Program-made: the position numbers and the translations under genes | The notes under the pieces: generated by a model | The model's input: only the letters and a program-made list of their open reading frames with translations | The model's database searches: none | Told to the model about the DNA's origin: nothing | In this document: piece after piece, positions 8,281-28,679 of the stretch | Numbering within the stretch: position 1 is the first letter of the stretch | Layout of the letters: each line of letters starts with the position of its first letter | NCBI GenBank assembly: GCA_002722245.1 | Contig: PBLA01000033.1 | Location: 6,206-64,949, forward strand | Source: Flavobacteriales bacterium | GTDB taxonomy: Bacteria > Bacteroidota > Bacteroidia > Flavobacteriales_C > GCA-002722245 | Direction of reading: 5' to 3' | Length of the DNA: 58,744 nucleotides

Positions 8281-10119
8281 ATGAAAACCTTTATTACTCT
8301 GTTTGTTTCAATAGCAAACCTTTACTGTTTTGCACAAAACACCATCACTGCAACCCTAGATAACCAAAACACTTATTCAATAAACCCAATGATATATGGA
8401 TACAATCAAGATCATTCAACACCAAACAGCTATGAAAACTGGGGTTCAAGAAGATTAGGCGGTAACAGAATGTCGGTATTCAATTGGGAAAATGGAGCAT
8501 CTAACTCAGGAAAAGATGTAGCCACCTTTACTAATGACAATAGAATCCCAAGTTTGGTTGGAACTACATGGAATGCTAGAAATGACGCAGGAGAGGCATA
8601 CAGAAAATTTCATCAAGACAATCTAGATGCTGGTTTAGAGTCCATAATAACCGTTCCTATTATGGGTTGGGCAGCAGCAGATAAAGATGGTCCAAACAGC
8701 ACAACTCCCCCATCATTAAGATGGCTTTATGTACAACCAAAAAAAACAGGTTCGTTTTCACTTACTCCAGACTTAACAGACGACACTGTATTTGTAGACG
8801 AATCAATCAATTGGCTGGTAAATGAATTTGGAAATGCCTCCACCTCAACTGGGGTAAAATATATATCCTTAGACAACGAGCCCGGATTATGGAACAATAC
8901 CCATCCACATTCTTTTCCGAACACAATAAGCCTCTCGGATTACGTAAATAAAGTAATTGAAACCGCTAAAGCCATTAAGGCTGTTGACCCTTATGTTAAA
9001 TTAATTGCAGGTGAATTTACCGGGATTCGAATTATTCAATTCAACGATGCTTCAGATTGGAGTTCTGAAACATCCGGTTACCCAGATTTTCCTTCTTATT
9101 TTTTAGACAAATTGGAACAAGCATCAATTGATGCAGGCATTAATTTAATTGATTACATTTCATTTCATTATTATCCTCAACATAAAGTGGACAGTGATAA
9201 CAATTTCAGCTCAAGTGGAGTTGTCATTAGAAATTCAAACAGCTCAGAAAATTACATCCGAAGAGAAAGAATGGATTTAGCAAGATCACTTTGGGATGAG
9301 AACTACGTAGAGCCGAGCTGGTTAACCAGTTCAAAATTAAACAATGAACCTCACAAAATCTTAAAAAGAATCCAAAATGCAATTGACACCTATTCTCCTG
9401 GAGTTGGAATTATGATTGGAGAATGGGATTTCGGACACGATATGGATATTTCTCATGGAATTTCAACAGTTGATGCACTGGGCGTATTCGCTCAATATCA
9501 AGTTCAGATAGCAAATCGCTGGAACACAAGCAGTGGCAATTCAGGAAATTACACAGAACAAGCATATAAACTGCTGAGGAATTACGACGGTTCATTTTCA
9601 ACTTATGGAGATATTTGTATTCCAACTACCTTTAGTAATAAAAACAAAGCATCTGTATGGGCATCAAAAAGTTCCACAGATCAAAAAATTCATTTACTTA
9701 TCCTTAATAAGGACTTAACTAAAATAAACAATTATGAAATTAAGTTAGGAGAAGAAAACTACTCGATAGAATCCATTTGGGGATTCAATGAGAGCTCCTC
9801 AATTACTGAAATCACGGGAACAACATCTCATGTATCTGCCGACTCACTCTACATTTCTACTCCTAATTTATCTGCATATCATATTGTTTTATCCCCTGAT
9901 AACGTCACAGGAACCCATTTAAATTATGTACCCGAAATTAAATTAACAAGACTAAACAGTAATCATTACATTCTTTCTCAAGCTGTTAATTGGGAACTTT
10001 TTGATATCAAAGGAAGTTTGATCGTAAAAAACTTTGGGAAAATAATTGATTTGAACTCAATGAATCCAGGAATCTATTTTATAAAATGCCCCAACATGAG
10101 TTGGAAAATTGTAAAATAG
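8281..10119 (+). CDS. Glycoside hydrolase family 44 glucanase with T9SS sorting domain
   Basis: A secreted GH44 enzyme; the family acts on cellulose derivatives, xyloglucan and related beta-glucans. A signal peptide (MKTFITLFVSIANLYCFAQ) is followed directly by the family's N-terminal block SINPMIYGYNQD and the signature RRLGGNRMSVFNWENGASN. The likely acid/base is Glu200 in SLDNEPGLWNNTHPHS, and the likely nucleophile is Glu381 in MIGEWDFGHDM. The catalytic part ends near residue 530. About 65 C-terminal residues (NWELFDIKGSLIVK, MNPGIYFIKC) form a divergent type A T9SS sorting domain. The gene is monocistronic, with its own promoter and a terminator shared with ilvN. It complements the GH9 enzyme at the window start. 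Confidence 0.93.
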   Translation: MKTFITLFVSIANLYCFAQNTITATLDNQNTYSINPMIYGYNQDHSTPNSYENWGSRRLGGNRMSVFNWENGASNSGKDVATFTNDNRIPSLVGTTWNARNDAGEAYRKFHQDNLDAGLESIITVPIMGWAAADKDGPNSTTPPSLRWLYVQPKKTGSFSLTPDLTDDTVFVDESINWLVNEFGNASTSTGVKYISLDNEPGLWNNTHPHSFPNTISLSDYVNKVIETAKAIKAVDPYVKLIAGEFTGIRIIQFNDASDWSSETSGYPDFPSYFLDKLEQASIDAGINLIDYISFHYYPQHKVDSDNNFSSSGVVIRNSNSSENYIRRERMDLARSLWDENYVEPSWLTSSKLNNEPHKILKRIQNAIDTYSPGVGIMIGEWDFGHDMDISHGISTVDALGVFAQYQVQIANRWNTSSGNSGNYTEQAYKLLRNYDGSFSTYGDICIPTTFSNKNKASVWASKSSTDQKIHLLILNKDLTKINNYEIKLGEENYSIESIWGFNESSSITEITGTTSHVSADSLYISTPNLSAYHIVLSPDNVTGTHLNYVPEIKLTRLNSNHYILSQAVNWELFDIKGSLIVKNFGKIIDLNSMNPGIYFIKCPNMSWKIVK

Positions 10120-10138: not shown

Positions 10139-10173
10139 TAAAAAAAGGTCGATGTAAACATCGACCTTTTTTT
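10139..10173. terminator. Bidirectional intrinsic terminator between GH44 gene and ilvN
   Basis: Stem GGTCGATGT/ACATCGACC (10147-10155 with 10158-10166) is flanked by an A run and a T run, so it serves both converging genes. Confidence 0.85.
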
Positions 10174-10201
10174 ATCTCTTTAAGTTAAAAACGAATTTGT
10201 T

Positions 10202-10756
10202 TTATGAATTAACAACGAATTTATCGGTTAACCCGACTTCTTCAATCCACGAATGAAGATTAGGCATTGGCCGAGCAATCGCAACTCTACCAGAACGAAC
10301 AAATTCCAAAATACCAAAAGGCTTTAATTTTTCAAACAGCTCTTGAGTTTCCTCTTTATGACCTGTTTTTTCAATTACTGTAAATTCTTGATCAACATAT
10401 AAAATTCTCGCAGCATTTCTTCTAACTACCTTTTCAACATTACTTCCCAACAGCGTCGAAGATTTAATTTTATATAGCGCAATTTCCTGATAAACGACAT
10501 CATCTTCCTCGAAATAAAATGCAACCATAACATCAACAACTTTTTTGATTTGATTGACAACTTTAACAACACTCTCTTTCGTTACATGAATGACTATAGT
10601 AAAACGATAAATCCCCTCTATTTCGCTCTCAGAAGTTGTTAAACTATCAATGTTTATCTTTCTTCTGGTAAATATCTGCATTAATCTGCCCGCTAAACCG
10701 ATATGGTTTTCAGCATAAACAGAAATAGTAAATCTTTGTATAGTATCTGTACTCAT
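10202..10756 (-). CDS. ilvN: Acetolactate synthase small (regulatory) subunit
   Basis: Regulatory subunit of acetohydroxyacid synthase, which stabilises the large subunit and normally confers valine feedback inhibition. It has 184 residues. An N-terminal ACT domain carries the diagnostic NHIGLAGRLMQIFTRRKINI and SLTTSESE, followed by a C-terminal domain with KPFGILEFVRSGRVAIAR. It lies 23 bases downstream of ilvB and is the last gene of the ilvD-ilvB-ilvN operon, ending 29 bases before a terminator. The long two-domain form resembles IlvH as much as IlvN; the symbol follows ilvBN usage. Confidence 0.93.
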   Translation of the reverse strand: MSTDTIQRFTISVYAENHIGLAGRLMQIFTRRKINIDSLTTSESEIEGIYRFTIVIHVTKESVVKVVNQIKKVVDVMVAFYFEEDDVVYQEIALYKIKSSTLLGSNVEKVVRRNAARILYVDQEFTVIEKTGHKEETQELFEKLKPFGILEFVRSGRVAIARPMPNLHSWIEEVGLTDKFVVNS

Positions 10757-10779: not shown

Positions 10780-12522
10780 TTATTTTAATCTACACTCGGC
10801 AACACTAGCTCCTGTTGGAACCATTGGAAATACATTCCCCTCTTTCTCAACCATCACTTCCAACAAATAAGACTCCTTGGAATCAATCATTTCCTTTAAT
10901 GATGACTCTAAGTCCTTTCGTTCAGAGACAGACTTGGCCTTAATACCATATGCCTCAGCAACCTTGACAAAATTAGGGGACTCAATAACTGTTTCAGCAT
11001 ACCTTTTGTCAAAAAACAATTGCTGCCATTGACGCACCATTCCCAAAAATTCATTATTCAAAATCAGAATTTTTACAGGAATTTTTTCCTGCATAATAAC
11101 TCCTAATTCTTGAATTGTCATTTGAAAACCACCGTCTCCTATAATTGCTACAACTTCCTTGTCCGGACGAGCTACTTTTGCTCCAATAGCTGCGGGCAAA
11201 CCAAACCCCATAGTACCAAGACCTCCAGAAGTGACATTGGTATTAGTGTCCATGAATTCATAGTATCGAGCTGTAATCATTTGGTGTTGACCAACGTCGG
11301 TTGATATAATGGCTTGACCTTGCGTTAAATCCGATAGTTTACGAACAACTTCAGCCATTTTGAGATTATCTCCAGAAGGATTAATATCTTCATTAATCAC
11401 AAATTCTTCTTCTTTTTTATATAACTCGTCCCAAACATTAAACCAATCTTTACGTCCGTCGGATTCAATAATCATTCGATTTAAAGCTGTTACTGTTTCC
11501 TTACAATCTCCCAAAACAGGATAATGTGCAAAAACATTTTTATTCACCTCAGAGAAATCCAATTCAAAATGGACAATTTTTGCTTGTTTAGCATATCGAC
11601 TCAAATCACCCGTAACTCTATCGTCAAATCGCATACCAACCGCAATAAGCACATCGCATTCGTTTGTCATCAAATTAGGAGCATAAGAACCATGCATTCC
11701 TACCATTCCTTGAAACAAATCGTGTTTTGCAGGAAAAGCAGAGGCACCCAACCAAGTAGTTGTAACCGGAATTTGAGCTTTTTCAGCCAATTCCAAAACC
11801 TCTTTTTGAGCATTTCCCAATAGCACTCCATGGCCAACAATCATCATTGGCTTTTTTGCCCCATTAATAGCTTGAGCAGCTTCTTTAACTTGATCAAGAT
11901 TCACTTCAACCCGGGGATTATATGACCTTACAAATTCACATTTAGTATAATTAAAATCCAATTCTGCAAATTGCGCATCTTTAGTTATGTCAATCAAAAC
12001 GGGACCTGGACGTCCCGAGTTCGCAATATAAAAAGCTTTCGCTATAGCCCACGGAACCTCTTCTGCTTTGGTAACTTGAAAACTCCATTTTACCACAGGA
12101 GATGAAATTCCAATCACATCCGTTTCTTGAAAAGCATCAGTTCCCAATAAATGAGAAGCAACTTGTCCGGTTATACACACTAAGGGAGTACTATCTATTT
12201 GTGCGTCCGCAATTCCCGTAATAAGGTTAGTTGCACCTGGCCCTGATGTAGCAATAGCAACTCCAGTTTTATTATTGACTCTTGCTTCTCCCTGAGCAGC
12301 ATGGGCAGCACCTTGTTCGTGACGCACAAGTATGTGCTTAATCTTATCCCTGTACTTATAAAATTCGTCGTACACAGGCATAATCGCACCTCCAGGATAT
12401 CCATAAACCTTTTCTACTCCCTCTTCCAATAAGCTTAAAACCACAGCCTCTGCACCTGTGACTTTTTTAATTTTGTTTTCTTTTTGCATTTTACTCGGTT
12501 GAGTTACAGTTTTTTCACCCAT
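10780..12522 (-). CDS. ilvB: Acetolactate synthase large (catalytic) subunit
   Basis: Thiamine-diphosphate enzyme that condenses pyruvate to 2-acetolactate, or pyruvate plus 2-oxobutyrate to 2-aceto-2-hydroxybutyrate: the first common step of Val, Leu and Ile synthesis. It has 580 residues. Visible landmarks are [15 protein letters not shown], the catalytic Glu in [14 protein letters not shown], the FAD-region [15 protein letters not shown], and the ThDP motif [19 protein letters not shown]. These mark the anabolic form. The ATG at 12522 is used; ATG at codon 12 is an alternative. Only 11 bases separate this start from an intrinsic terminator, so expression depends on read-through (see the attenuator entries). 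Confidence 0.96.
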
Positions 12523-12533
12523 TTCAATTCCTT

Positions 12534-12565
12534 AAAAAAAGCTTTCCTCAATGAGAAAAGCTTTT
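12534..12565 (-). terminator. Intrinsic terminator immediately upstream of ilvB (attenuator)
   Basis: On the minus strand, arm 12565-12553 pairs with 12549-12537 over 13 base pairs (12 Watson-Crick, one G-U that is an A-C mismatch on the plus strand), with a three-base loop and a run of seven U ending at 12534. Just 11 bases remain before the ilvB ATG, too few for another promoter, so transcripts must read through this element to express ilvB and ilvN. Confidence 0.8.
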
Positions 12566-12618
12566 CAATATTATTAAATCCCAAAACATTTTCTTACTTA
12601 TACTGGAAAAGTCCTCTC
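12553..12618 (-). promoter_or_regulatory. Candidate antiterminator pairing
   Basis: Minus-strand RNA 12618-12606 (GAGAGGACUUUUC) can pair with the first arm of the terminator, 12566-12553. The helix has 13 pairs (two G-U) with a single bulged C at 12560. Pairing here prevents the terminator from forming. The upstream arm overlaps the last codons of the Leu/Ile/Val-rich frame at 12594-12653, so a ribosome finishing that frame would cover it. Confidence 0.5.
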
Positions 12619-12653
12619 ATCGATAATAAAACAATTAAGGCACTTTTTGATTC
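12594..12653 (-). other. Candidate branched-chain amino acid leader-peptide frame (no standard start codon)
   Basis: This minus-strand frame reads ESKSALIVLLSMRGLFQYK then TAA at 12596-12594. Five consecutive codons (12638-12624) specify Leu, Ile, Val, Leu, Leu, exactly the end products of the pathway encoded downstream. The frame is closed by TAG at 12656 and contains no ATG, GTG or TTG before the run. Initiation would have to use ATT at 12635, or ATC at 12652 followed by a shift in the A-run at 12649-12645; a one-base sequencing error in that A-run is also possible. Placement relative to the antiterminator matches classical attenuation. Confidence 0.35.
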
Positions 12654-12674
12654 CTAAGAAGAAATTCTCAACGT

Positions 12675-12705
12675 CAAAAATATTGAAGAAAAGAATAAAA
12701 GTAAA
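12675..12705 (-). promoter_or_regulatory. Candidate internal promoter for ilvB-ilvN
   Basis: TATTTTTG on the minus strand at 12682-12675 fits TAnnTTTG perfectly. TTTA (12705-12702), one base off TTTG, lies 19 bases upstream. Transcription would begin near 12669, just ahead of the leader frame and attenuator. Confidence 0.4.
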
Positions 12706-12812
12706 TTCGGATTTCTAGTTTTTTAAAACTCACTCCAACATCCAAAAGCAACAACAACAATCTAACTCATTGACAATAAGTGTTTTACAAACAAAGCACA
12801 TACTCAACCCAA

Positions 12813-14489
12813 CTAGAAACTATCGGTTAATGCTCCTTTGGACGCACTGCTCACTTGGCGAGCATATTTTGCCAAAATTCCTCTTTTGGGTAATTCTTTC
12901 GGTTTCCAATCTTTTCTTCTGTCTTCCAATTCATCATCAGAAACAGCTACATTCATGACATTATTCTCAGCATCAATCGTTATTATATCTCCGTTTTTCA
13001 CCAAACCAATTACTCCACCCTCCTGGGCCTCTGGAGAAACATGACCAACAACAAACCCATGAGACCCTCCTGAAAACCTTCCATCGGTAATCAACGCAAC
13101 ATCCTGACCTAAACCTGCACCCATTACAGCCGAAGTTGGCTTTAACATTTCAGGCATTCCAGGACCACCTTTTGGTCCCTCAAAACGAATTACTATAACG
13201 TTTCCTTTTTTTACTGTTCCATCTAAAATACCATCAATTGCCGAAAACTCATCATCAAAAACTACAGCAGGCCCTTCAAAACGCGTCCCCTCTTTTCCTG
13301 TAATTTTAGCAACTGATCCTTCAGTAGCCAAATTTCCATATAAAATCTGTAAGTGACCCTCCGGTTTAATTGGGTTATCTAAATCTCGTAATAAATCTTG
13401 CCCTTCAGCTAAACTTGGAACTTGAGCTAAATTCTCTGCGAGTGTTTTTCCTGTAACTGTCATTACATCACCGTGAAGTAGGCCTTTTTCTAATAAAAAC
13501 TTCATCACTGCCGGTACACCTCCTATAGCATGTAAATCTTCCATTAAATACTTACCCGATGGTTTCAAATCAGCCAAAAAAGGAGTTTCATCACTCATTT
13601 TTTGAATATCGTCTAAAGTCAACTCTACTTCAACTGCGTCTGCCATAGCAATTAGGTGCATAGTAGCATTAGTTGAACCACCTAATGCAATAATTACTCT
13701 CAAAGCATTATCAAATGCTTTACGTGTCATAATATCTCTTGGTAATATATTTTTCTCCATTAAGTTTCTAATGGCTGGCCCAACCTTGTTTAGCTCATCA
13801 ATTTTATCTTGAGAATTTGCTGGATTTGAAGAAGAATACGGAAGAGACATTCCCAATGCTTCAATTGCTGATGACATAGTGTTTGCGGTATACATACCCC
13901 CACATGCTCCAGCTCCTGGACATGAATTCTTAATAATCCCCTTGTATTGCTCATCATCAATTTCACCGGAATTTTTCTTTCCCAATGCCTCAAATGCAGA
14001 TACAATATTTAATTTTTCTCCACAAAACTCTCCTCCCGCAATGGTTCCTCCATACACTAAAATAGATGGTCGATTCAGCCTACCTATCGCCATCATTGCG
14101 CCAGGCATATTCTTGTCACAACCAACTACAGGAACTAATGCATCATAAAATTGAGCACACATAACAGTTTCAATAGAATCAGCTATTATATCTCTGGAAA
14201 CCAAAGAATATTTCATACCCGTTGTTCCATTGGATATACCATCTGAAACCCCGATTGTATGAAATACTAACCCAACTAAATCAGAAGCATTTACACTGGC
14301 CTTGATATCGGCAGCAAAACCATTTAAATGCATATTACAAGTATTACCCTCCCAACCTGTAGAAGCAATACCAACCTGAGCTTTATTCATATCATCCTCA
14401 GTTAATCCCACACCGTAAAGCATTGCTTGTGAAGCAGGCTGAGTTGGATCTTGAGTGATTGTTTTTGAGTACTTATTTAATTCAGACAT
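12813..14489 (-). CDS. ilvD: Dihydroxy-acid dehydratase
   Basis: Fe-S dehydratase that converts 2,3-dihydroxy-isovalerate and 2,3-dihydroxy-3-methylvalerate to the 2-oxo acids in Val, Leu and Ile synthesis. It has 558 residues, the standard length. Cluster-binding Cys residues are visible in [25 protein letters not shown] and [19 protein letters not shown]. The C-terminal signature [21 protein letters not shown] is present. It is the first gene of the ilv operon; ilvC and ilvA are not in the window. A TAnnTTTG box 22 bases upstream suggests a short 5' leader without an attenuator of its own. Confidence 0.96.
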
Positions 14490-14624: not shown

Positions 14625-16283
14625 CTAATTGTTTATTATTTTTTTTACAATCAAATTAAGTAAAATCATAATTGCTAAACCTAATGCAAGTTTTCCAATA
14701 ACATCTCCGTACTTAACATAAAAAGTAATTTCATTATTACATTTAATTTTTTGTCTCAAGCAAGCCGGAATTAAATACTTTGATTTTTGCAATTCATCTC
14801 CCCTCTGATTGATAAAACCACTAATTCCTGTATTGGCAGACCGAGCAACAGACCTTCTTGATTCTATTGCTCTCAACCGAGCAAAACTCCAATGCTGCTT
14901 GTGACCGGGAGTATCTCCCCACCAAGAATCGTTTGTTATGATTCCAATAAAATTTGCTCCTTTATTTATATACTCCGTCAAGTATTCACCAAATACGCTC
15001 TCGTAACAAATAACTGGAGCGACAATTGAAGAATCACATATTCCTTTAAATACTTCTCGTTCAGGCTGTATTGCATTATTTGGGTTATAGATACTAGCGT
15101 TAGGGTTGCTGTTAAAATCAAACAAATATTTTTGAAAATAAACAAAATAACTGGGGATTCTTTCTACTCCAACAACCAACCTTGATTTATGATATTGTGG
15201 TAAGGTATCGCTTTTTCCATTGATGAGGACAGAGGAGTTATAATACTCAAAATAATAACCATCTTTTGTTCTTTGATAAGTTGCTGGAACTTCATCAAAC
15301 TTATTTACTCTACCTTTGAACTCCCTGTATGCTAAACCGGTAAGAATCGAGGTATTAGGATATTTCTCTTTTTGCCAATCTTTTAAAAATCCTATAGATT
15401 TTGAAAAAAAGATTGAACGATTGGTTTCTGCTTGAGGAAGAGCTGTTTCATGCATAAGCAACCAATCAACTTCGTTATCCATTACTCCCTCAGCCATTTG
15501 AACGAAGTCTCTCGCGTACTTCCATTTTTCTTCATCACTGTACTTTCTTATATTATTACCTTGAGAATCCATAAACGAATCTGAGTAGGGTTCCAAATTG
15601 GGCTGCAATACAACAACATCTTGCTCAAACCCTTTCTCATCATAGGTATAGTATTGAAAAAGTGAAATTACTACAGGGATAGTTATTACTGCACCCAGTT
15701 GAAGACCTTTCTTAAATCGAGTGAAAGACTCTTCCTTCTCCCTCCATGACTTTAAAATCAAAAAAACATAAATATTAATTACAATTAGCCATAAGCTTCC
15801 CCCCAATACTCCTGAATAAGAAAACCATTGAATTAATTTAGGCCAATTTCCGAAGGCATGACCTAATGTCAGCCATGGCCATGACAAGTCCCAATCCTGA
15901 AACTCGATGTATTCCCAACCGATAAAAAATGAAGGAAAAGCAATTAGTGCTGCTTTGAAACTTAATCTTCTTTTAACAGCGCTATATAAAACAATAAGCA
16001 AAGCAAAAAATAAACTATTTACCAAGACAGAAGCTCCAACACCCAACCAAGACGCATTCTTTACCCACCAAATAGTTAAAAAATTAAAACCAGCAAAAAA
16101 TAAAAAAGACGTCATGAATACAGACCGCATTTTGTACTCATTATTGGATGAAATTCTGTCTTCTATAAGGAACAAAGGAACCAATCCAATCATGGCTCCC
16201 GGTAAAAAATCAAAGGGAGGGAAACTGGAAGCCAATAAAATAGCTCCCAAAAAAAGTATACCTATGTTTTTAATCCATTTCAA
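14625..16283 (-). CDS. lnt: Apolipoprotein N-acyltransferase
   Basis: Inner-membrane enzyme that adds the third acyl chain to the N-terminal Cys of lipoproteins. About six to seven membrane helices lie in the first 210 residues, followed by a periplasmic carbon-nitrogen hydrolase domain with the expected triad: Glu279 in MHETALPQ, Lys366 in YHKSRLVVGVE, Cys426 in APVICYESVFG. A last membrane helix is at the C-terminus. The length of 552 residues is typical. It follows gpmI by 39 bases and is probably co-transcribed. The window also encodes several lipoprotein candidates as potential substrates. Confidence 0.93.
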   Translation of the reverse strand: MKWIKNIGILFLGAILLASSFPPFDFLPGAMIGLVPLFLIEDRISSNNEYKMRSVFMTSFLFFAGFNFLTIWWVKNASWLGVGASVLVNSLFFALLIVLYSAVKRRLSFKAALIAFPSFFIGWEYIEFQDWDLSWPWLTLGHAFGNWPKLIQWFSYSGVLGGSLWLIVINIYVFLILKSWREKEESFTRFKKGLQLGAVITIPVVISLFQYYTYDEKGFEQDVVVLQPNLEPYSDSFMDSQGNNIRKYSDEEKWKYARDFVQMAEGVMDNEVDWLLMHETALPQAETNRSIFFSKSIGFLKDWQKEKYPNTSILTGLAYREFKGRVNKFDEVPATYQRTKDGYYFEYYNSSVLINGKSDTLPQYHKSRLVVGVERIPSYFVYFQKYLFDFNSNPNASIYNPNNAIQPEREVFKGICDSSIVAPVICYESVFGEYLTEYINKGANFIGIITNDSWWGDTPGHKQHWSFARLRAIESRRSVARSANTGISGFINQRGDELQKSKYLIPACLRQKIKCNNEITFYVKYGDVIGKLALGLAIMILLNLIVKKIINN

Positions 16284-16322
16284 ATGATAAATATGAAAAA
16301 TCTTTATTTACAATGTTTTGAC

Positions 16323-17843
16323 TTATACCAAAACATCACCCGTCATATCTGAGGGAATTTCCACTTCCATCATTTTTAAGATGGTCGGAGCCAAATCGCC
16401 TAACTTTCCTGGATTGATGGATTTATAATCATCATCAATTAAAATACAAGGAACAGGGTTTGTTGTATGAGCTGTGTGGGGTGATCCATCAGGATTAATT
16501 ACAAAATCAGCATTTCCGTGATCGGCAATTATGATATATGAATAACCTTTTTCCAAACCTGTCTCAACAACCCTTTTTAAACAAGAATCTACGGTTTCAA
16601 CAGCTTTTACAACTGCATCATAAACTCCTGTATGACCAACCATGTCTGGATTAGCAAAATTCAAGCATACAAAATCCACTTCTCCTTTTTCGAGTTCAGC
16701 TGTGATTTTATCAGTCACTTCTGGCGCACTCATTTCAGGTTGTAAATCATAGGTTGCTACTTTTGGTGATGCAGCAATTAATCTCTTCTCGCCTACAAAT
16801 TCTTCCTCTCTTCCTCCTGAGAAAAAGAAAGTAACGTGAGGATATTTTTCAGTTTCAGCGATTCTAATTTGTGTTTTACCTGCAGACTCTAAAACCTCAC
16901 CCATTGTGTTGGTTAAATTGTCTTTTTCATATGCGATGTTTACATTTTTAAATGTTTCATCGTATTTGGTCATAGTAACATAATGTAACGGAATAGTCTT
17001 CATTCCTTCCTCTGGAAATTCTTGTTGGGACAATGCCTGAGTAATTTCTCTACATCTATCTGTTCGAAAATTAAAACAAATCACTACATCTCCTTGTTCA
17101 ATCAAACCAACAGGAACATTATTTTCATCAACGATTGATACGGGCTCAATAAATTCATCCGTCACCCCAGAATCGTATGAAGCCTGAATTGCTTCAATTG
17201 GATCTTGAAATTTAGTACCCGTCCCTTTTACCATTACATTGTAAGCTTTAGCAACCCTTTCCCAGCGCTTATCTCTATCCATAGCATAGTATCTTCCGGT
17301 TACCGAGGCGACAGTTCCATTTGAAGTTTTAAGATGAGATTGAAGCTCCTCCATATACCCCTTACCAGATTTTGGATCAACGTCTCTTCCATCAGTAAAA
17401 GCATGGACAAAAACATCATTAACTCCATACTGCTTAGCCATATCACATAAAGCGTGTAAATGAGCCTGTGATGAATGCACTCTGCCCTCAGAAACTAAAC
17501 CCAGATAGTGTACTTTTTTTCCATTTTCCTTCGCATAATTTAAAGCAGTCGACAACACAGGGTTTTCAAAAAAAGAGCCGTCTTTAACCGCTAAATTAAT
17601 TTTAACTAAATCCTGATAAACAACTCTACCAGCACCAATATTTAAATGTCCTACCTCCGAATTACCCATTTGTCCCTCAGGCAAGCCAACTTCTTCTCCA
17701 CTTGTAACTAATGTTGAATGAGGATACTTCTCATAAAGAGAATCCATAAAAGGGGTTTGTGCATTATAAATTGCATCTGACTCTGTTTTATCACCATGCC
17801 CCCATCCATCAAGAATCACAAGAGCAACTTTTTTATTCATCAT
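16323..17843 (-). CDS. gpmI: 2,3-bisphosphoglycerate-independent phosphoglycerate mutase
   Basis: Glycolytic and gluconeogenic enzyme that interconverts 3- and 2-phosphoglycerate through a phosphoserine intermediate with two metal ions. The N-terminal metal site is VILDGWGHG, and the nucleophile is Ser62 in GQMGNSEVGHLNIGAGR. The substrate-binding region includes HAFTDGRDVDPKSG, and the C-terminal metal-binding part has NFANPDMVGHTG and IIADHGNAD. It has 506 residues, as expected. The first two codons are both ATG. A TATCTTTG box lies 31 bases upstream. Confidence 0.96.
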   Translation of the reverse strand: MMNKKVALVILDGWGHGDKTESDAIYNAQTPFMDSLYEKYPHSTLVTSGEEVGLPEGQMGNSEVGHLNIGAGRVVYQDLVKINLAVKDGSFFENPVLSTALNYAKENGKKVHYLGLVSEGRVHSSQAHLHALCDMAKQYGVNDVFVHAFTDGRDVDPKSGKGYMEELQSHLKTSNGTVASVTGRYYAMDRDKRWERVAKAYNVMVKGTGTKFQDPIEAIQASYDSGVTDEFIEPVSIVDENNVPVGLIEQGDVVICFNFRTDRCREITQALSQQEFPEEGMKTIPLHYVTMTKYDETFKNVNIAYEKDNLTNTMGEVLESAGKTQIRIAETEKYPHVTFFFSGGREEEFVGEKRLIAASPKVATYDLQPEMSAPEVTDKITAELEKGEVDFVCLNFANPDMVGHTGVYDAVVKAVETVDSCLKRVVETGLEKGYSYIIIADHGNADFVINPDGSPHTAHTTNPVPCILIDDDYKSINPGKLGDLAPTILKMMEVEIPSDMTGDVLV

Positions 17844-17874
17844 AATAAGGAGTTTAGTATTTCAATATTTGCAG

Positions 17875-17882
17875 CAAAGATA
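17875..17882 (-). promoter_or_regulatory. Probable -7 box of the gpmI promoter
   Basis: TATCTTTG on the minus strand is a perfect TAnnTTTG box and gives a predicted 5' leader of about 25 bases. No convincing -33 element is present. Confidence 0.4.
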
Positions 17883-17968
17883 TACTTTTTAAAAGCCTGT
17901 TAAAATAATAATTTAAAGGATAAATCATTTTAATTAATCCATTGAAATTTTCACACTAAACTAAAAAT

Positions 17969-18763
17969 TCACCGATTATCGCCGTTTATTAAACCACCTA
18001 TTCCTCCCAGAATACTGCCCTCTCCTTTTCGACTTTCTCCTGAACTTGAAGCACTTTGAATGATGCGATCTGCTAATCTTGAAAAAGGTAAGCTCTGAAG
18101 ATAAACGACCCCATATCCACTTAAGGTTGCCAGAAATAATCCCTCGCCGCCAAAAAACATAGATTTCAGATTTCCTGCTTTTTGAATATCATACGTTATT
18201 CCATCGGTAAATCCTACAATACAACCAGTATCTACTTTGAGCGATTCTCCATTAAGTTCTTTCTTTACAACTGTTCCACCAGCATGCAGAAAAGCCTTTC
18301 CATCTCCTTCTAATTTTTGAAGTATAAATCCCTCTCCACCAAAAAAACCTACACCCAATTTCCTATTGAAAGCAATTGAAACCTTTGTTCCCAAGGCAGC
18401 ACAAAGAAAGGCATCCTTCTGACAAATCAAACGCTGCCCAATTCTATTCATATCAATAGGTATAATCTTCCCAGGATACGGAGCTGCAAAAGCTACCCTT
18501 TTCTTTCCTTGGCCAATATTTGTGAAATGAGTAATAAAAATTGACTCTCCAGTCAAAACTCTTTTAGCTCCATCGAATAATTTTCCAAAAATTCCTTTTT
18601 CTGGTTCTGAACCGTCACCCATCTTGGCTTCAAAATTTATGGAATCCTCCATCCAGTTCATTGCTCCTGCCTCTGCAATAACAGTTTCATAAGGGTCCAG
18701 TTCAACCTCAACGATTTGCATATCGTCTCCATATATTTCGTAATCTATTTCTTGACACTTCAT
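17969..18763 (-). CDS. AIM24 / TIGR00266 family protein
   Basis: 264-residue member of the AIM24 family, a beta-rich fold related to tubby-like domains whose bacterial role is not established. Family features include the early [40 protein letters not shown] and the repeated [17 protein letters not shown]. There is no signal peptide or membrane helix, so a cytoplasmic location is expected. The C-terminus is Gly/Ser-rich. It is separated from the upstream histidine kinase gene by 41 bases on the same strand and may share its transcript. No function is assigned. Confidence 0.85.
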
Positions 18764-18804
18764 ACGCTTATTTCTATTGTCGATTTAAGATTCTTTTATA
18801 CTTT

Positions 18805-19698
18805 TTATCTGAAGGAGGCAACGAAGATACTTCCGCTGGGGACGTTTGGTTTTACTTGAATCATACCATTGTGTTGTTCAACTAATTTCTTTACAATATA
18901 TAATCCTAAACCTGTACCTTTCTGACTTCTTGTTTCTTCATTTCCTGAGCGATAAAATTTATCAAATATTTTTTCTGTCTCGTCCATTGGAACACCGGGC
19001 CCCTCATCTGATATACTTAGAGCTGTTTCTTTTCCTTTTTGAACAAGAGTGACACAGATTGATGACTTCTCGGGTGAATACTTCAAAGCATTACCAATAA
19101 GGTTTATTAAAATTGAATAAAACGCATCCTTATCTCCTTGAAAATAAACTTCCGGCTCTATAAAAAACTCAACATCAACTGTTTTTCCTGAAGATTCCAA
19201 CATATCTAGTGTTACTTTTTCCATCATCTCTGAGAGATTGATACGCTCTGGATTTAGAGGAAGACCATTATCGTCAATTTTAGTGGCCAACAAAATATTT
19301 TCAACCAAAGCATTCAAACGATCGGCATCCTTTACCGATTTATTCAAAATCTCTTCTTGTTTGGATGGGTTTAAAGTCCTCTTCAGTAAAGTTTGTAAAT
19401 AAAGTTTCAATGAAGCTATGGGAGTTTTTAATTCGTGAGTTATAGCCAGTAAAAAATTTTTTTGTTGATTTCCTACTTGAATTTCTTTGTTGAACGAACG
19501 ATAAGTCAAAAGAAAACCTGTAAAAAGGATAATAAAAAACACCCCGCCTTCTCCTAAAATCATATAAAACTTTCGATCCATATCAGTTGGGTCCGTAACT
19601 TGAGCGGAAAGCCTGTATATGTTGTACAACCACCAAACAGATTGTAAAGAAACATATACCAAAAGTACTGTGAAGAGAATTAAATTCTTTCTTTTCAT
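18805..19698 (-). CDS. Orphan sensor histidine kinase
   Basis: Membrane sensor kinase of 297 residues. Two helices (about residues 7-25 and 50-67) enclose a short extracytoplasmic loop of about 25 residues. The dimerisation/phosphoacceptor domain has His88 in AITHELKTPIASLK. The ATPase domain shows the N box NLIGNALKYSPEKS, DEGPGVP, IFDKFYRSG and GTGLGLYIVKKLVEQH. No HAMP domain is evident. No response regulator gene is adjacent, so the partner is unknown. The tiny sensor loop suggests it senses a membrane signal or a partner protein rather than a large ligand. Confidence 0.92.
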   Translation of the reverse strand: MKRKNLILFTVLLVYVSLQSVWWLYNIYRLSAQVTDPTDMDRKFYMILGEGGVFFIILFTGFLLTYRSFNKEIQVGNQQKNFLLAITHELKTPIASLKLYLQTLLKRTLNPSKQEEILNKSVKDADRLNALVENILLATKIDDNGLPLNPERINLSEMMEKVTLDMLESSGKTVDVEFFIEPEVYFQGDKDAFYSILINLIGNALKYSPEKSSICVTLVQKGKETALSISDEGPGVPMDETEKIFDKFYRSGNEETRSQKGTGLGLYIVKKLVEQHNGMIQVKPNVPSGSIFVASFR

Positions 19699-19773
19699 AG
19701 TTTAAAAATATACATTCATTTTTACTAAATACGAAAAGAAGAATAGGTTTCTTCGATAAGGTACAATCAAAAT

Positions 19774-21063
19774 CTAGAAAATTACATCTCGAAGATAACG
19801 TTCCAGATCTTCTTTTGTCAAATTACTAGAGTTGACATTAACTAAATTATCATCGTTCGTAGTAAAATCAAGAAACGCCAATTTATTTTGTGACTTACTG
19901 GTTTGCAAAGCAAGGAGCGTAACCTCCGAACCCTTTGGTATTTCTGGCGTTTGATAAACTCCATTGGTTATTTTATAAATTGGGAGCACGCTATTGATGT
20001 CTTTAAAAATTAAATATACAGCAAAAGAATTATCACATATTCCATTATCAATACTGAAAGTCATTGTAATTTTTTCTTCGGCATCGTAGAATCGATCACA
20101 ATTAATCCAACCTAAATCACTGTATTCACCAACCAAATAATCTTGTTCACTTACTACATGTTTAACAAGAATCGCCTGCATTTCACCTGAGCTTAATTCA
20201 ATAAAAACGGTATCTGTGATTTCATTTTGATTTAAATAATTCTCTTCGTCTAATTCGTTCTCATCATTGTTTACCTCCGGAGACTCCTGATAAAATTTTT
20301 GCTGACTGTTTTTGACCCAAGTGAGCTGACCATTTGTTTCTTTGCCATAAAAGGAATAAAACGGAACATCAGATTTAGCCTCATTAATTTTTAGTGTGTA
20401 GGTTACTTGAGGTCTGAGATTAATTTTTACGTCATTGGAAAAAGCCTCAATAAAATACATTCCCTTTGTTTCAAGTATACCTTTATCACCAAGAGCAGTT
20501 ACTCCATACTTAACAAAATCATATTTGGAGTTAAATTCCTGAATACGAACTGTGATTACATCTGTACTACTTCCCTCAAAACTCATCGGTTTAAACTTTA
20601 TGATATTTCCAGATTTGAACCTTAAAAAACAGCCATCAATATTTCGGAAATCTTTTACAATTTGATTTGTGCTATCTTCTTTATTTTTCAGTTTAACAGA
20701 ACTTTTCAACCGAAGTGGTTTGTTGACCCAAAGGTTTTCAAAAGTACCGTACTTAAATTTGATCTGCTCACCGTCAATACCATTTTCTTTAAGGAAATCA
20801 GCAATTATTCTGTTCCTGATTTTTGCATTACTGTGAGCCAAATGTCTATTTTTTTCTATTTCAGATTCCTGAACCGTATTGAAATAGATCCAATCACCAG
20901 GACCTGTTTTAATATACATTTCGAGGATTTTTTCCTTATTTTCCCTGCTAAGAACACGTCCATTATTTTCAAATTCCAACTGCACACCTCGAGTTGTATT
21001 TTTAGCCGATACAACAAATCCCAAAACAAAAAGACCAATTAAAATAGTTAACCTCATACGCAA
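19774..21063 (-). CDS. Secreted protein of unknown function with OmpA-like N-terminal region
   Basis: 429 residues with a signal peptide (MRMRLTILIGLFVLGFVVSA). Residues about 30-110 (HSNAKIRNRIIADFLKENGI and nearby) resemble the helix-strand layout of OmpA-like peptidoglycan-binding domains, but the usual NxxLSxxRA core is degenerate. The middle (SFEGSSTDVITVRIQEF, GDKGILETKGMYFIEAF) recalls beta-sandwich modules found in Bacteroidota surface proteins, often described as ZU5-like. The remainder is beta-rich and unrecognised. There is no T9SS sorting domain, so periplasmic or outer-membrane association is more likely than release. The gene appears to stand alone. Function unknown. Confidence 0.7.
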   Translation of the reverse strand: MRMRLTILIGLFVLGFVVSAKNTTRGVQLEFENNGRVLSRENKEKILEMYIKTGPGDWIYFNTVQESEIEKNRHLAHSNAKIRNRIIADFLKENGIDGEQIKFKYGTFENLWVNKPLRLKSSVKLKNKEDSTNQIVKDFRNIDGCFLRFKSGNIIKFKPMSFEGSSTDVITVRIQEFNSKYDFVKYGVTALGDKGILETKGMYFIEAFSNDVKINLRPQVTYTLKINEAKSDVPFYSFYGKETNGQLTWVKNSQQKFYQESPEVNNDENELDEENYLNQNEITDTVFIELSSGEMQAILVKHVVSEQDYLVGEYSDLGWINCDRFYDAEEKITMTFSIDNGICDNSFAVYLIFKDINSVLPIYKITNGVYQTPEIPKGSEVTLLALQTSKSQNKLAFLDFTTNDDNLVNVNSSNLTKEDLERYLRDVIF

Positions 21064-21120
21064 AATTTAACTCATAACGATAAAAACCAATTGCGTAACA
21101 GATTAAAGTATCGATATAAA

Positions 21121-21145
21121 AAAAGGCAACAAAACGTTGCCTTTT
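21121..21145 (-). terminator. Intrinsic terminator of the pgi-glucan operon
   Basis: Stem AAAAGGCAAC/GTTGCCTTTT with a U tract on the minus strand, 22 bases past the GH57 stop codon. Confidence 0.8.
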
Positions 21146-21166
21146 AAGAATGTGATTTTAATTGTT

Positions 21167-22438
21167 TTAATTCAATTCTACACCTTCTGGTAAAAACTTT
21201 TTAAAGTTCTCTAATATTCCAGGATGAACTTCTCTGTACTCCTCATCCACACCCGCCGCATTACGAACTCTTTCTTCAAAATCAGTCAACACATTCATGT
21301 AATTTAAAAAAGCCTCGTAAGGTGAGTCATAATGCGAAAAGTATTTGTGAACATCCCCATCGCTCCAGAACTTGGTACACATATAGTAAAAATGATCGGA
21401 AGTTTGAAGTTTTACCCAATCGTCTTTTATTTTATCATCATCAATTTTATTAACGAGATACTCTAAAGCGTATATTGAGTCAAAAGCATCGTCCTGCATT
21501 GGATTACCCAACCAGGCCGTCAGGTCTCTCTCTGCATCTGCCCATGAAATAGTAGAGTGAATATCTATGCCAGATATCGGCTTCAGTTCTTTAGCTGCTT
21601 CGGAAGGAGTAACAAAATCAAATTGCGAATGATTTATAATTTGATTTGGTAATTCTCTCATAAAATCAAAAATACCACTGTCTTCCCATTGATGCTCCCC
21701 AAACGTCTCATAATCCATAAATAAATTGACAATTTCTTCATTCCATGGAATAGAATCTACCCAATGAGCAAATGTTTCAGACTTAAGAGGCCATGACTCC
21801 CAGGATCTTTCTGAAAAGCGAAAGGCAATATCATCTGATAATTTGTAATTCTTAAGCAACAACTTTAAATCAGGATGTTGACAATGACTATATAAAAAGT
21901 TAGGACTTCTCCATCCCATGACATGGTCTGCACCTTCAGTAATCATAGTTTTGTATCCCATATCCTGAACTATACTACCAATGTAGTTGTTGTAAATCAG
22001 CTCAGTATTTCTGAAGGTTTTAGGCGTTTGTCCAAAATGCTGTTCGATTTTAGCGGTTTGCTTCGCAACCTGCTTTTTAAATTCTTCTGGGGATTTCAAT
22101 GCTGACAGTGAATGTCCATAGGTTTCAGCAATAAACTCAACGCAACCCGTATCTGCCAAGCGTTTAAAAGACTCCAACACATCCTGAGCATATAATTCAA
22201 ATTGTTCAATACATACTCCGGAAATAGAGAAAGCCACCTTAAAGTTTCCATTATGAGCTTGAATTTGCTCTAATAAAAGTTGATTCATTGGTAAGTAACA
22301 CTTATGTGCTACTTTTCTCATAATATCGTGATTTTTCTTTTCATCAAAATATTGATTATCAACACTTATGTCAAAAAACCGATAATTTTTTAACCTGAAC
22401 GGTTGATGAACCTGAAAATAAAAACATAATTTTTTCAT
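21167..22438 (-). CDS. Glycoside hydrolase family 57 alpha-glucan enzyme
   Basis: A GH57 enzyme, a family of retaining alpha-amylases and glucanotransferases acting on starch or glycogen. The start MKKLCFYFQVHQPFR is GH57 motif 1. The nucleophile is Glu146 in FRNTELIYNN (motif 3), and the acid/base is Asp242 in MDYETFGEHQ (motif 4). It has 423 residues, typical of the short cytoplasmic Bacteroidota form, and no signal peptide, so it acts on intracellular glucan. It lies 5 bases after the glycosyltransferase gene and is the last gene of the operon pgi - debranching enzyme - glycosyltransferase - GH57. Confidence 0.93.
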   Translation of the reverse strand: MKKLCFYFQVHQPFRLKNYRFFDISVDNQYFDEKKNHDIMRKVAHKCYLPMNQLLLEQIQAHNGNFKVAFSISGVCIEQFELYAQDVLESFKRLADTGCVEFIAETYGHSLSALKSPEEFKKQVAKQTAKIEQHFGQTPKTFRNTELIYNNYIGSIVQDMGYKTMITEGADHVMGWRSPNFLYSHCQHPDLKLLLKNYKLSDDIAFRFSERSWESWPLKSETFAHWVDSIPWNEEIVNLFMDYETFGEHQWEDSGIFDFMRELPNQIINHSQFDFVTPSEAAKELKPISGIDIHSTISWADAERDLTAWLGNPMQDDAFDSIYALEYLVNKIDDDKIKDDWVKLQTSDHFYYMCTKFWSDGDVHKYFSHYDSPYEAFLNYMNVLTDFEERVRNAAGVDEEYREVHPGILENFKKFLPEGVELN

Positions 22439-22443
22439 AACTC

Positions 22444-23757
22444 CTAATTTCTAACGCTTCTTCTTCTATTAATCGTTTTATTGTATATCTCACGAACCTT
22501 TAAAGACGCATACTCCCACTTCATTTCATTGACTTCATGCGTACCATCGGCTGCTAATTTTTTAGAAACCTCTTCATTTTTCAAAAGTCCGATTATCGTA
22601 TCCGACAATGCATTTACATCCCAAAAATCAACCTTTATTGAATTCTTTAAAACCTCGGCCACACCCGATTGTTTGGATATAATTACCGGTACCCCGGTTC
22701 GCATTGCTTCAAGCGGAGTAATCCCAAATGGCTCTGAAACAGAAGGCATTACATACACATCTGTCATTCCAAAAAGATTATTGGTTTCAAAGTAATTTAA
22801 AAACCCTGTAAAATGGAATCGATTACTGATTCTTAACTCAGCAGCACGTTCTACGCACTTTAAAAACATATCTCCGTTTCCAGCCATAACAAAATGAGTA
22901 TCTGGCATAACATCCAAAACCTTTCTTGCTGCATCAACAAAATAATCTGGTCCTTTTTGAAAAGTAATTCTCCCCAAGAAAGTAACAATTTTTTTATCTA
23001 TTAAATTTCGTTTAGGATAGATTATAGCAGGTTTTGGAACTACAGCATTATGAACAACAGAAATTTTTCTTCCATCAATACCGTATCGATTCATTAGAAT
23101 TCTTCTTGTTAAACGTGAAACGCATATTATTCGATCAGCAGCTTCACATCCTCTTCTTTCCAAATCATACACCTCCTGATTAACAGATTCTCCAGAACGA
23201 TCAAATTCAGTAGCATGAACATGAACCACTAATGGCTTACCACTAACTTCTTTTGCCATAATAGCGGCGGGAAAAGTCAACCAGTCATGAGCATGAATAA
23301 CATCAAAATCCTGATCCTGTGCAATCTGCATGGCAACAACTGCATACTTCGAAACTTCACTTAAAAGGCTTTTACCATACCTTCCTCCAAATTGAAATTT
23401 TGCAGAGCTAAAATTGGAATCAACTTTAGAGATGGAATCAATATCAAACTCCTCTCTATCCATAAACTCCTGAGGAGAAGCATAAGGAATAATGTGAGAA
23501 TGAATTTGCATGTAATTTACCTTTTCAAGATTTTTTTGAAACTTACTGGTAGAAAAATTTACTTCAACATCGCTTGCTCCAACCAATCTGAATTTATCCG
23601 TTTCCTCAGATCCGTATAATTTAGGGACAACAAAGGTTACATCTACACCATTTTCAATTAAACCACTTACGAGTCCATAACAAGCGGTTCCCAATCCTCC
23701 TGATATTTCTGGTGGAAACTCCCATCCAAACATTAATACTTTAGGTTGCAATGCCAT
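22444..23757 (-). CDS. GT-B glycosyltransferase, probable glycogen synthase
   Basis: 437-residue GT-B fold enzyme. The N-terminus MFGWEFPPEISGGLGTACYG resembles the KxGGLGD glucose-binding loop of glycogen synthases. The C-terminal half has FLGRITFQKGPDYFVDAARK and the donor-binding E-x7-E motif in SEPFGITPLEAMRTGVPVI. Its place between a debranching enzyme and a GH57 enzyme, with 16- and 5-base gaps, argues for storage-glucan synthesis. The sequence is nearer the GT4-type synthases than the classical bacterial GlgA, so glgA is not assigned and the sugar donor (UDP- or ADP-glucose) cannot be told from sequence. Confidence 0.85.
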   Translation of the reverse strand: MALQPKVLMFGWEFPPEISGGLGTACYGLVSGLIENGVDVTFVVPKLYGSEETDKFRLVGASDVEVNFSTSKFQKNLEKVNYMQIHSHIIPYASPQEFMDREEFDIDSISKVDSNFSSAKFQFGGRYGKSLLSEVSKYAVVAMQIAQDQDFDVIHAHDWLTFPAAIMAKEVSGKPLVVHVHATEFDRSGESVNQEVYDLERRGCEAADRIICVSRLTRRILMNRYGIDGRKISVVHNAVVPKPAIIYPKRNLIDKKIVTFLGRITFQKGPDYFVDAARKVLDVMPDTHFVMAGNGDMFLKCVERAAELRISNRFHFTGFLNYFETNNLFGMTDVYVMPSVSEPFGITPLEAMRTGVPVIISKQSGVAEVLKNSIKVDFWDVNALSDTIIGLLKNEEVSKKLAADGTHEVNEMKWEYASLKVREIYNKTINRRRSVRN

Positions 23758-23773
23758 AGTTTTTAATTATTAT

Positions 23774-25717
23774 TTAACTTATTTTATTTATCAAAGCTTT
23801 TATTCTTATTAACTCCGAAATACTCCAGGCTTGAGCTATCGTCCCTTTAGGAGCAAACGGAGGTTTAGAATCGTATATTTCTCCAATTGAGCCAACACCA
23901 TAGTCTGCTAAATCAGAATTAAATTCACTTAAAATTTGCCGAAGTAAAGGTAATGCATTATATCCAAAAACATTAACATATCCCTGAGCAAAATGACCTA
24001 ATAACCAAGGCCATACAATTCCTTGGTGATAAGAATGATCTCTATTTTTTTGATTTCCGTTATAAATGCCAATAAATTTTTCATCTTCTTCACACAAAGT
24101 CCTTAAACCTTTGGGCGTCAATAGTTTATCTTTTACTTTTTTTAATATTGATCGACTCATTTCTAAATCACAAACCGAATATTTTAATGCGGTAGCAAAT
24201 ACTTGATTCGGACGAAAGCTCCAATCCTTAATTTTTTCCTCACAAGCATCGGCTAAATAGCCCTTTTTTTCATCCCAAAACATCTTTTTAAAGGCAATTT
24301 TTAGAGAAGAAGGTACATTTTTCCAATTTGCAATAAACTTATTATCTCCTGCTGCTTTTGCCATTTCCAGACTAAAACAAATTGCATTATACCATAATGC
24401 GTTCAATTCAACAGCATATCCTCCTCGTGGCGTTACAGGCACACCGTCAACAACCGCATCCATCCATGTTAAAGCTACGTCCTTCTGCCCTCCATACAAT
24501 AAACCACTCGATTTCATATGAATATTGTAAAGAGTTCCTTCTTTATATTTATCGAGGATGTGATTGATTTCTTTTTTGAAATATAACCATGTTTTTTCAG
24601 CCGTCCCTGTAAACTCAACGTATTCCTGTAAAGCCCAAAAAAACCACAATGAAGCATCTGCAGAATTATATCGAGCAGAGGATCCTACTCCAATATTTGT
24701 AAGCAATCCTCCTTTCAGATCTTTTAGCATAGTTTTCAAAACTTCCTTACACACCTCAGGCTGTGGAAGTTTTCGGTACAAAGTAAGCCCAGGTAAAGAT
24801 AAAAAGGTATCTCGTCCCCATCTGCCAAACCAATGCAAACCTGCGCAAATTTCGACCCCATTCTGAGGTGTTTTACAAACAAATTGATCCGCAGCTTTCT
24901 CCAAATAGCTGCTTAAGTCCTTCAAAACTTCCTTATTCTCTAAAATCTCACTAAATACCGAATCAATTTCATCTAAATTTTCTTGTTGTGTCGAAACCGA
25001 AACAACAACCGGACTTCCCTTTTTTAATTCAAAAAGAATTAATCCTATGGAGTATAGATCCTCTTTAAAATCATACCCTCTATTTAATTCTTCGAGATAT
25101 TCTGCTTTATAATGCCAATCACCATGAGCAATAAATTCATTTTCAACAGAGGTTTGAATGAATACACTATCGTATCCATTCTCCATACAATAACTGACTC
25201 CATTGCTATGTTTCAAAACACTTATTTTACGGTCATCTGCCTTGCGAAGCTTATGAATTCGTCGATAAGATGAAAAAGGCTTTAAGCCCAACTCAATTCG
25301 GTCACCCTCCAGAAGAGAATATCGAATCAACAATTGATTTTTATTTGGAGAAAACTGTATCTCCTTTTGAATTTTATGCCCGTCAACTTCAAAAATAAAG
25401 GTTGGTATTTTTTTTAATTGAAAATAAGATAAGTATTGATAACCTTCGGGATGAGCCGTTAATGAGTATTGATGCACTCCTAATTCATAAACATTATTAT
25501 TAACATCCAACACCTCATGTAAAGCGTTCAATAAAACATAGCTATGATGATCAATTTGCGGTTGTCTTACAACAAAAGTTCCATGATACTTTCGCGTGTT
25601 AACTCCAGCTAAGGTAGAACTTGAATAAGCACCAAGAGAGTTGGTTTCCAGAAACTCTCGTTTGCTTGATTTATCAAACTCTGTTAAAAATTCCTTATCA
25701 AAACTTACAGTACTCAT
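23774..25717 (-). CDS. Amylo-alpha-1,6-glucosidase (glycogen debranching enzyme, GH133 type)
   Basis: Removes alpha-1,6 branch residues from glycogen. It has 647 residues. The N-terminal domain carries EFLETNSLGAYSSSTLAGVN and TRKYHGTFVV, a family hallmark. The (alpha/alpha)6 catalytic domain has LHWFGRWGRDTFLSLPG, where the Asp is likely catalytic, then LTWMDAVVDGVPVTPRGG and YHQGIVWPWLLGHFAQGY. No signal peptide, hence cytoplasmic. It lies 8 bases after pgi and 16 before the glycosyltransferase gene, consistent with a single mRNA for storage-glucan metabolism. Confidence 0.93.
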   Translation of the reverse strand: MSTVSFDKEFLTEFDKSSKREFLETNSLGAYSSSTLAGVNTRKYHGTFVVRQPQIDHHSYVLLNALHEVLDVNNNVYELGVHQYSLTAHPEGYQYLSYFQLKKIPTFIFEVDGHKIQKEIQFSPNKNQLLIRYSLLEGDRIELGLKPFSSYRRIHKLRKADDRKISVLKHSNGVSYCMENGYDSVFIQTSVENEFIAHGDWHYKAEYLEELNRGYDFKEDLYSIGLILFELKKGSPVVVSVSTQQENLDEIDSVFSEILENKEVLKDLSSYLEKAADQFVCKTPQNGVEICAGLHWFGRWGRDTFLSLPGLTLYRKLPQPEVCKEVLKTMLKDLKGGLLTNIGVGSSARYNSADASLWFFWALQEYVEFTGTAEKTWLYFKKEINHILDKYKEGTLYNIHMKSSGLLYGGQKDVALTWMDAVVDGVPVTPRGGYAVELNALWYNAICFSLEMAKAAGDNKFIANWKNVPSSLKIAFKKMFWDEKKGYLADACEEKIKDWSFRPNQVFATALKYSVCDLEMSRSILKKVKDKLLTPKGLRTLCEEDEKFIGIYNGNQKNRDHSYHQGIVWPWLLGHFAQGYVNVFGYNALPLLRQILSEFNSDLADYGVGSIGEIYDSKPPFAPKGTIAQAWSISELIRIKALINKIS

Positions 25718-25725
25718 TAACTTTA

Positions 25726-27363: not shown

Positions 27364-27387
27364 AGATGAGTTGAGCAAAATACGCAT

Positions 27388-27395
27388 CAAAAATA
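27388..27395 (-). promoter_or_regulatory. Probable -7 box of the pgi operon promoter
   Basis: TATTTTTG on the minus strand is a perfect TAnnTTTG box. It predicts a start near 27382 and a leader of about 19 bases before ATG 27363. No clear -33 element. Confidence 0.4.
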
Positions 27396-27521
27396 CATCG
27401 AAACCATTTAAAAACAGTCACTTTTCTGTAAATAAATCAACTTCATTCGAAATAAAAATTGAAGCAAAAAAACTTTAGGAAAACAAGAAATATTAAAAAA
27501 GAAAAAATATAATTCAATTTA

Positions 27522-28478: not shown

Positions 28479-28679
28479 TAATAAACCTCAATGTATGACC
28501 GTAAATACATTCTCTAAAACCAATTGTATAAACACTTCTTTATGAAAAATTTATTTTGATTTAGGCAGATTCCTCAACAGTCAACATCGTCTTTCAACTG
28601 TTGTTTTTAAAAAAAGTTTCAGAAATTAGACTAGAAACCTGTTCACTTAGATTAACTTATGGAATTCAGCGATATAAAT

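Follow-up and report, generated by a model that had tools for sequence, protein, structure and literature searches.

The ilv locus and its upstream gap

The window, a stretch of 58,744 nucleotides, carries lnt, ilvD, a 290-bp gap, ilvB, and ilvN in that order on the minus strand (Table 1). IlvB, IlvN, and IlvD are all intact, with the ilvB ATG at 12522. Beyond ilvN, a strong 16-bp bidirectional terminator (10139-10174) stands between ilvN and a convergent gene (8281-10119).

The window derives from a metagenome-assembled genome (G000, contig C9) with 4.15% contamination. A second contig of the same genome, C6, harbors another complete, syntenic ilv region (16000-30500; L118) with ilvB 89% and ilvD 97% identical, most likely the contribution of a co-binned relative. 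The window's order is represented here by only ten species in two genera, and its own genus provides five sequences in total, every one assembly-derived and one with an N nearby. Two missing enzymes probably reflect assembly gaps: IlvB has no close match in G002 (91% complete), and no IlvC passes the cut-off in G000 (95% complete).

Table 1. Genes and regulatory features around the ilvD-ilvB gap (window coordinates).
Feature	Position	Strand	Details
ilvN, acetolactate synthase small subunit	10202-10756	-	TIGR00119
ilvB, acetolactate synthase large subunit	10780-12522	-	TIGR00118
U7 tract	12540-12534	-	ends 11 nt before ilvB ATG
Intrinsic terminator hairpin	12565-12537	-	13 bp, AAAAGCTTTTCTC-ATT-GAGGAAAGCTTTT; conserved in 9/10 family sequences
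Antiterminator arm (strand 2)	12618-12606	-	pairs over 12 bp with the 5' arm of the terminator; one bulge
Strand 1, predicted anti-antiterminator helix	12647-12632 with 12622-12607	-	14 bp; overlaps LIV codons
LIVLL frame of the preliminary description	12653-12594	-	ESKSALIVLLSMRGLFQYK then stop; start-less; preceded by in-frame TAG 12656-12654
Neighbouring frame	12657-12598	-	LGIKKCLNCFIIDERTFPV then stop; no start codon; homologous to congeners' leader by alignment
TTA where leader ATG stands in G001, G004, and the C6 relative	12657-12655	-	lost start codon
-7 promoter box	12682-12675	-	TATTTTTG; TAnnTTTG type; direct match
Conserved block 5' of -7 box	12701-12738	-	TTGGAG...TTTTAAAAAACTAGAAATCCGAATTTAC; alignment of five genus members
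ilvD, dihydroxy-acid dehydratase	12813-14489	-	TIGR00110

A preliminary description of this DNA had proposed a branched-chain amino acid (BCAA) attenuator in the gap, and most of its individual elements are in place. The 13-bp terminator with its U7 tract, 11 bases ahead of the ilvB ATG, is present as it was described, including the single G-U pair of the minus-strand RNA. This terminator lies between promoter and structural gene (12565-12534) and leaves no room for a second promoter ahead of ilvB, which means that RNA polymerase has to cross it to transcribe ilvB. The hairpin is absent from the list returned by a generic scan for sigma-70 promoters and terminators, probably because its stem includes part of the U tract; sigma-70 hexamers are inapplicable in this host's case.

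The -7 box was likewise located correctly and fits the TAnnTTTG pattern. In a transcriptome study of Flavobacterium psychrophilum, this box sits at -12 to -5 relative to the transcription start (PMC9723704), a spacing that would place the start in the window near 12670. Further upstream, the conserved block reads TTGGAG...TTTTAAAAAACT.GAAATC.GAATTTA across the genus, is 81% identical between the window and its nearest relative, G003, and could be a -33 region or an operator.

Conservation of the promoter and terminator

Matches to TAnnTTTG are no more frequent in the window than expected by chance, and runs of at least five consecutive Ile, Leu, or Val codons turn up in some frame of 8% of leader shuffles, 23% of whole-gap shuffles, and 6% of 110-nt stretches of the AT-rich window. 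At such chance levels neither the box nor the codon run says much alone, and the case for the element is carried by its conservation. The distance from the box to the ilvB ATG is 156-168 bp in all ten sequences. Between the window and G003, four-fold sites are 54% identical (46% differ); the promoter block (86%) and the terminator (73%) exceed this level, while the leader region, at 51%, diverges at about the neutral rate. G004 and G001 differ at 30% of their four-fold sites; their terminators are identical and their leaders 82% identical. By these rates the promoter and hairpin have stayed under selection in the window's branch, with no such sign for the peptide.

The proposed check for covariation in the 12537-12565 stem returned one double change, a minimal signal at a divergence too small for it to count as evidence. 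In the C6 relative no terminator passes the criterion applied, and it is taken as lost there.

Leader frames in the window's genus

The leader peptide had been sought in a frame with consecutive Leu-Ile-Val-Leu-Leu codons, and these codons (TTA ATT GTT TTA TTA, 12638-12624) and the closing TAA (12596-12594) are present. The complete frame runs GAA TCA AAA AGT GCC TTA ATT GTT TTA TTA TCG ATG AGA GGA CTT TTC CAG TAT AAG TAA. The accompanying claim that it lacks a start codon needs qualification: a TTG does stand in frame at 12671-12669, but the in-frame TAG intervenes, and a transcript starting near 12670 would leave that TTG unusable. The in-frame ATG (12620-12618) comes only after the LIVLL codons. 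In the expected place, the window has no translatable leader ORF that carries BCAA codons and opens with ATG, GTG, or TTG.

The leader homologous by alignment is arguably the neighbouring frame rather than the LIVLL frame. There, TTA replaces the ATG of the congeners, two substitutions away, and the frame closes with TAA at 12600-12598; a second alignment instead sets GTTTTATTA in register with frame A. G004 and G001 carry 19-codon ATG leaders (MRHLKVISVELVLRSLFGF, MRHLKVTSVEFVLRTQVRF), and the C6 relative has a 15-codon ATG leader with few BCAA codons. In G003 the terminator is present, and the ATG nearest the expected place encodes only MEGL before a stop. An alternative longer ORF in G003 (MKDFNGRTIKRFYFHVLLRSFVPF, then stop) ends at the canonical distance; by the box-to-start spacing given in PMC9723704, its start would coincide almost exactly with the 5' end of the transcript. 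The leader stop lies 79-88 nt from the ilvB ATG in the nine of ten sequences with a leader ORF. As the working leader the LIVLL frame is not supported: it has no start within the predicted transcript, is interrupted by TAG, fails to align with the congeners' peptides, and lies in a leader region that diverges at a near-neutral rate.

Another frame, MFWDLIILKSFSH followed by a stop (12589-12548, minus strand), opens with ATG and overlaps the 5' arm of the terminator. It was rejected as a leader; the frame is broken in G003 and probably arises by chance.

Antiterminator and competing helix

The arm at 12618-12606 can pair with the 5' arm of the terminator as proposed, although the computed helix has 12 bp and a bulge rather than 13 bp. 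Its pairing energy of -11.7 kcal/mol (P 0.03 versus shuffled leaders) ranks among the strongest found, and the antiterminator and terminator would be mutually exclusive. The corresponding pairing in G003 is weak (P 0.43). A predicted 14-bp upstream helix (12647-12632 with 12622-12607), overlooked in the preliminary description, would compete for the antiterminator arm; in the folding model it would sequester that arm and complete a three-state layout. The whole leader ahead of the terminator folds no better than its shuffles (z 0.37).

An intact attenuator in the sister genus

An ATG leader peptide with a valine run stands before ilvB in every one of the five species of this genus, G005-G009 (MNTKNNNIIVVVVSSLG with its stop, MNFLNNNISVVVVSSLG, MKRSIQNISVVVVVSLRR, MKTSTKNIISVVVVVS, MKISTKNIISVVVVVS; cores NNNIIVVVVSSLG or SVVVVVS), and in each a terminator directly precedes ilvB. 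An arm, GAGAAAG, at, overlapping, or just past the leader stop is complementary to the terminator 5' arm, CTTTCTC, and a competing upstream helix pairs AGCGTC with GACGCT in three species and CGTG with CACG in two. On the AT-rich background, the raw BCAA fraction of these leaders is mostly non-significant (P 0.03-0.12). What identifies the unit, as judged from sequence comparison, is the conserved valine run with its synonymous changes together with the geometry, and on this footing the unit is a classical three-state, ribosome-mediated attenuator of ilvBN.

In G009 and G008 (L007, L008), a peptidase-like frame rather than ilvD lies upstream, so the unit belongs to ilvB. The proposal that a BCAA attenuator controls ilvBN apart from ilvD thus gains support from sister-genus leaders and terminators at the same place. 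The search for a conserved, properly started leader in relatives succeeded in this genus (5/5), but the LIVLL frame itself is not conserved in the window's congeners.

A probably eroding attenuator and its alternatives

The element in the window is probably a real ribosome-mediated attenuator of ilvBN, inherited by the family as a whole, whose leader peptide is eroding in the window's lineage. In the sister species, transcription of a short RNA would start at the TAnnTTTG-type promoter, and the peptide translated from it would be rich in Val (VVVV or VVVVV). When tRNA is uncharged, the ribosome would stall, the arm at or after the stop would pair with the 5' arm of the terminator, and transcription would go on; smooth translation would instead let the terminator form. 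The window retains the promoter, the terminator, and arms predicted to form all three helices. With no canonical start for a frame of BCAA codons at the expected place, ilvBN may be preceded by a terminator that is weakened or has lost most of its regulation, and not by a tuned sensor. Because it lacks this leader ORF, the window is filed as a worn relative and not as a demonstrated working attenuator. The classical layout first proposed is correct as the mechanism of the family and, in kind, as that of this locus, with partial support from the window.

Erosion is favoured over rescue by a rare start or a single-base error since G003, too, has a compromised leader where the start is expected. 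Several observations count against erosion: the strong antiterminator pairing in the window would be unexpected if the switch were dead, the longer ORF of G003 could serve if transcription there began slightly upstream of the predicted site, and terminator covariation is minimal in a genus with few sequences. One rival reading is an attenuator that is fully functional in the window, its leader read from a non-canonical start codon (such as ATT at 12635-12633 or an ATC of the neighbouring frame) or its transcript beginning at a somewhat different site. The conserved promoter and terminator, the LIVLL codons in or beside strand 1, and the predicted ability to form all three alternative helices agree with this view. 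It is nonetheless unlikely, given that the LIVLL frame is not a conserved peptide in congeners, that the leader diverges at about the neutral rate, that a run of this kind is expected in roughly 6-8% of stretches, and that the only TTG is followed by an in-frame TAG. It is also quite doubtful that the window's lineage keeps a working ilvBN switch in which the conserved terminator is now driven by a frame that has no start or a start other than AUG, or by some signal other than a peptide.

A leader ORF intact in the organism, with its start removed or its frame shifted by an assembly error, is very improbable. A metagenome-assembled source with 4.15% contamination and a co-binned syntenic copy invites this suspicion, and a join at the A5 run (12649-12645) could link the frames. 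The homologous site, however, needs two substitutions to become ATG, the ilv enzymes of the window are undamaged, and G003, assembled independently, is compromised at its expected start as well; one sequencing error is unlikely when the G003 leader frame is also affected and the C6 terminator is lost. The terminator might otherwise belong to another kind of switch, such as a riboswitch or a protein-binding leader, or might simply end the ilvD transcript while letting part of the transcription read through. Conservation of the promoter and terminator across the genus without the leader peptide, and the conserved block upstream, are consistent with that idea. Against it stand the Val-rich leader that the sister genus plainly has at this position and the presence of the unit in G009 and G008 without ilvD upstream. 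Rfam cis-regulatory RNA families (T-box or other) had no match at the gathering threshold in the window, where the only hit was a tRNA elsewhere, and relaxing the threshold over 12480-12830 brought up no near-threshold family. Together these make a different switch or a read-through transcript end rather improbable.

Wider occurrence and relation to known systems

A BCAA-rich ATG leader with a terminator precedes ilvD in 37 of 74 related loci (L036-L115), compared with 0/74 shuffled controls, and these leaders frequently take the form MKKQILNIISIIVIVIISQx. At six loci (L064, L080, L101, L079, L113, L062), two complete BCAA attenuators stand in series about 700 nt upstream of ilvD. Such tandem arrangements occur in several Flavobacteriaceae (Sinomicrobium, Zhouia, Lacinutrix, and one metagenome-assembled genome); in one example, MKTNFIHIITVIVIVIISP is followed by MVHQIVIIIIVIVNSLPG, and the second carries GTTGATACAG at its stop codon, pairing with CTGTATCAAC of the terminator. 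No published description of tandem attenuators for ilv was found. Leaders before ilvC and leuA were sought in the window's family and none was found.

In E. coli, the ilvBN and ilvGMEDA attenuators combine a short peptide, Val-rich for ilvBN or rich in Ile, Leu, and Val, with three alternative helices and a terminator before the gene. The VVVV(V) leaders of the sister genus are closely similar in logic to the E. coli ilvB leader. The units described here differ in belonging to another phylum and using a TAnnTTTG promoter, and the window is without a started leader ORF. Attenuators were reportedly also listed in Bacteroidetes/Chlorobi by Vitreschak and co-workers (2004).

Corynebacterium ilvBNC likewise places an attenuator and a small ORF directly before ilvB; there the host belongs to the Actinobacteria and the uORF is intact (PMC10272879, PMC11857589). 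Salmonella mgtCBR has two ORF-controlled attenuators in series, as do some flavobacterial ilvD leaders, although the signals differ and the window has a single unit (PMC3641672). Within the same bacterial class, leader-peptide attenuation ahead of amino-acid operons was proposed from transcriptome data in F. psychrophilum; the available text does not itemise ilv operons, and the window's unit lies before ilvB rather than ilvD (PMC9723704). The suggestion that the element is undescribed for this group therefore holds narrowly: none of the papers searched describes the ilvB unit of this family, but attenuation of flavobacterial amino-acid operons is already known in outline (PMC9723704).

The mechanism itself is known and ordinary, and the group is under-studied. 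The family adds a Bacteroidota lineage of order level with classical attenuation directly before ilvB, where Flavobacteriaceae have it before ilvD. Since one of its genera has the form intact and the other has it worn, the loss of a leader peptide while its terminator is retained becomes testable.
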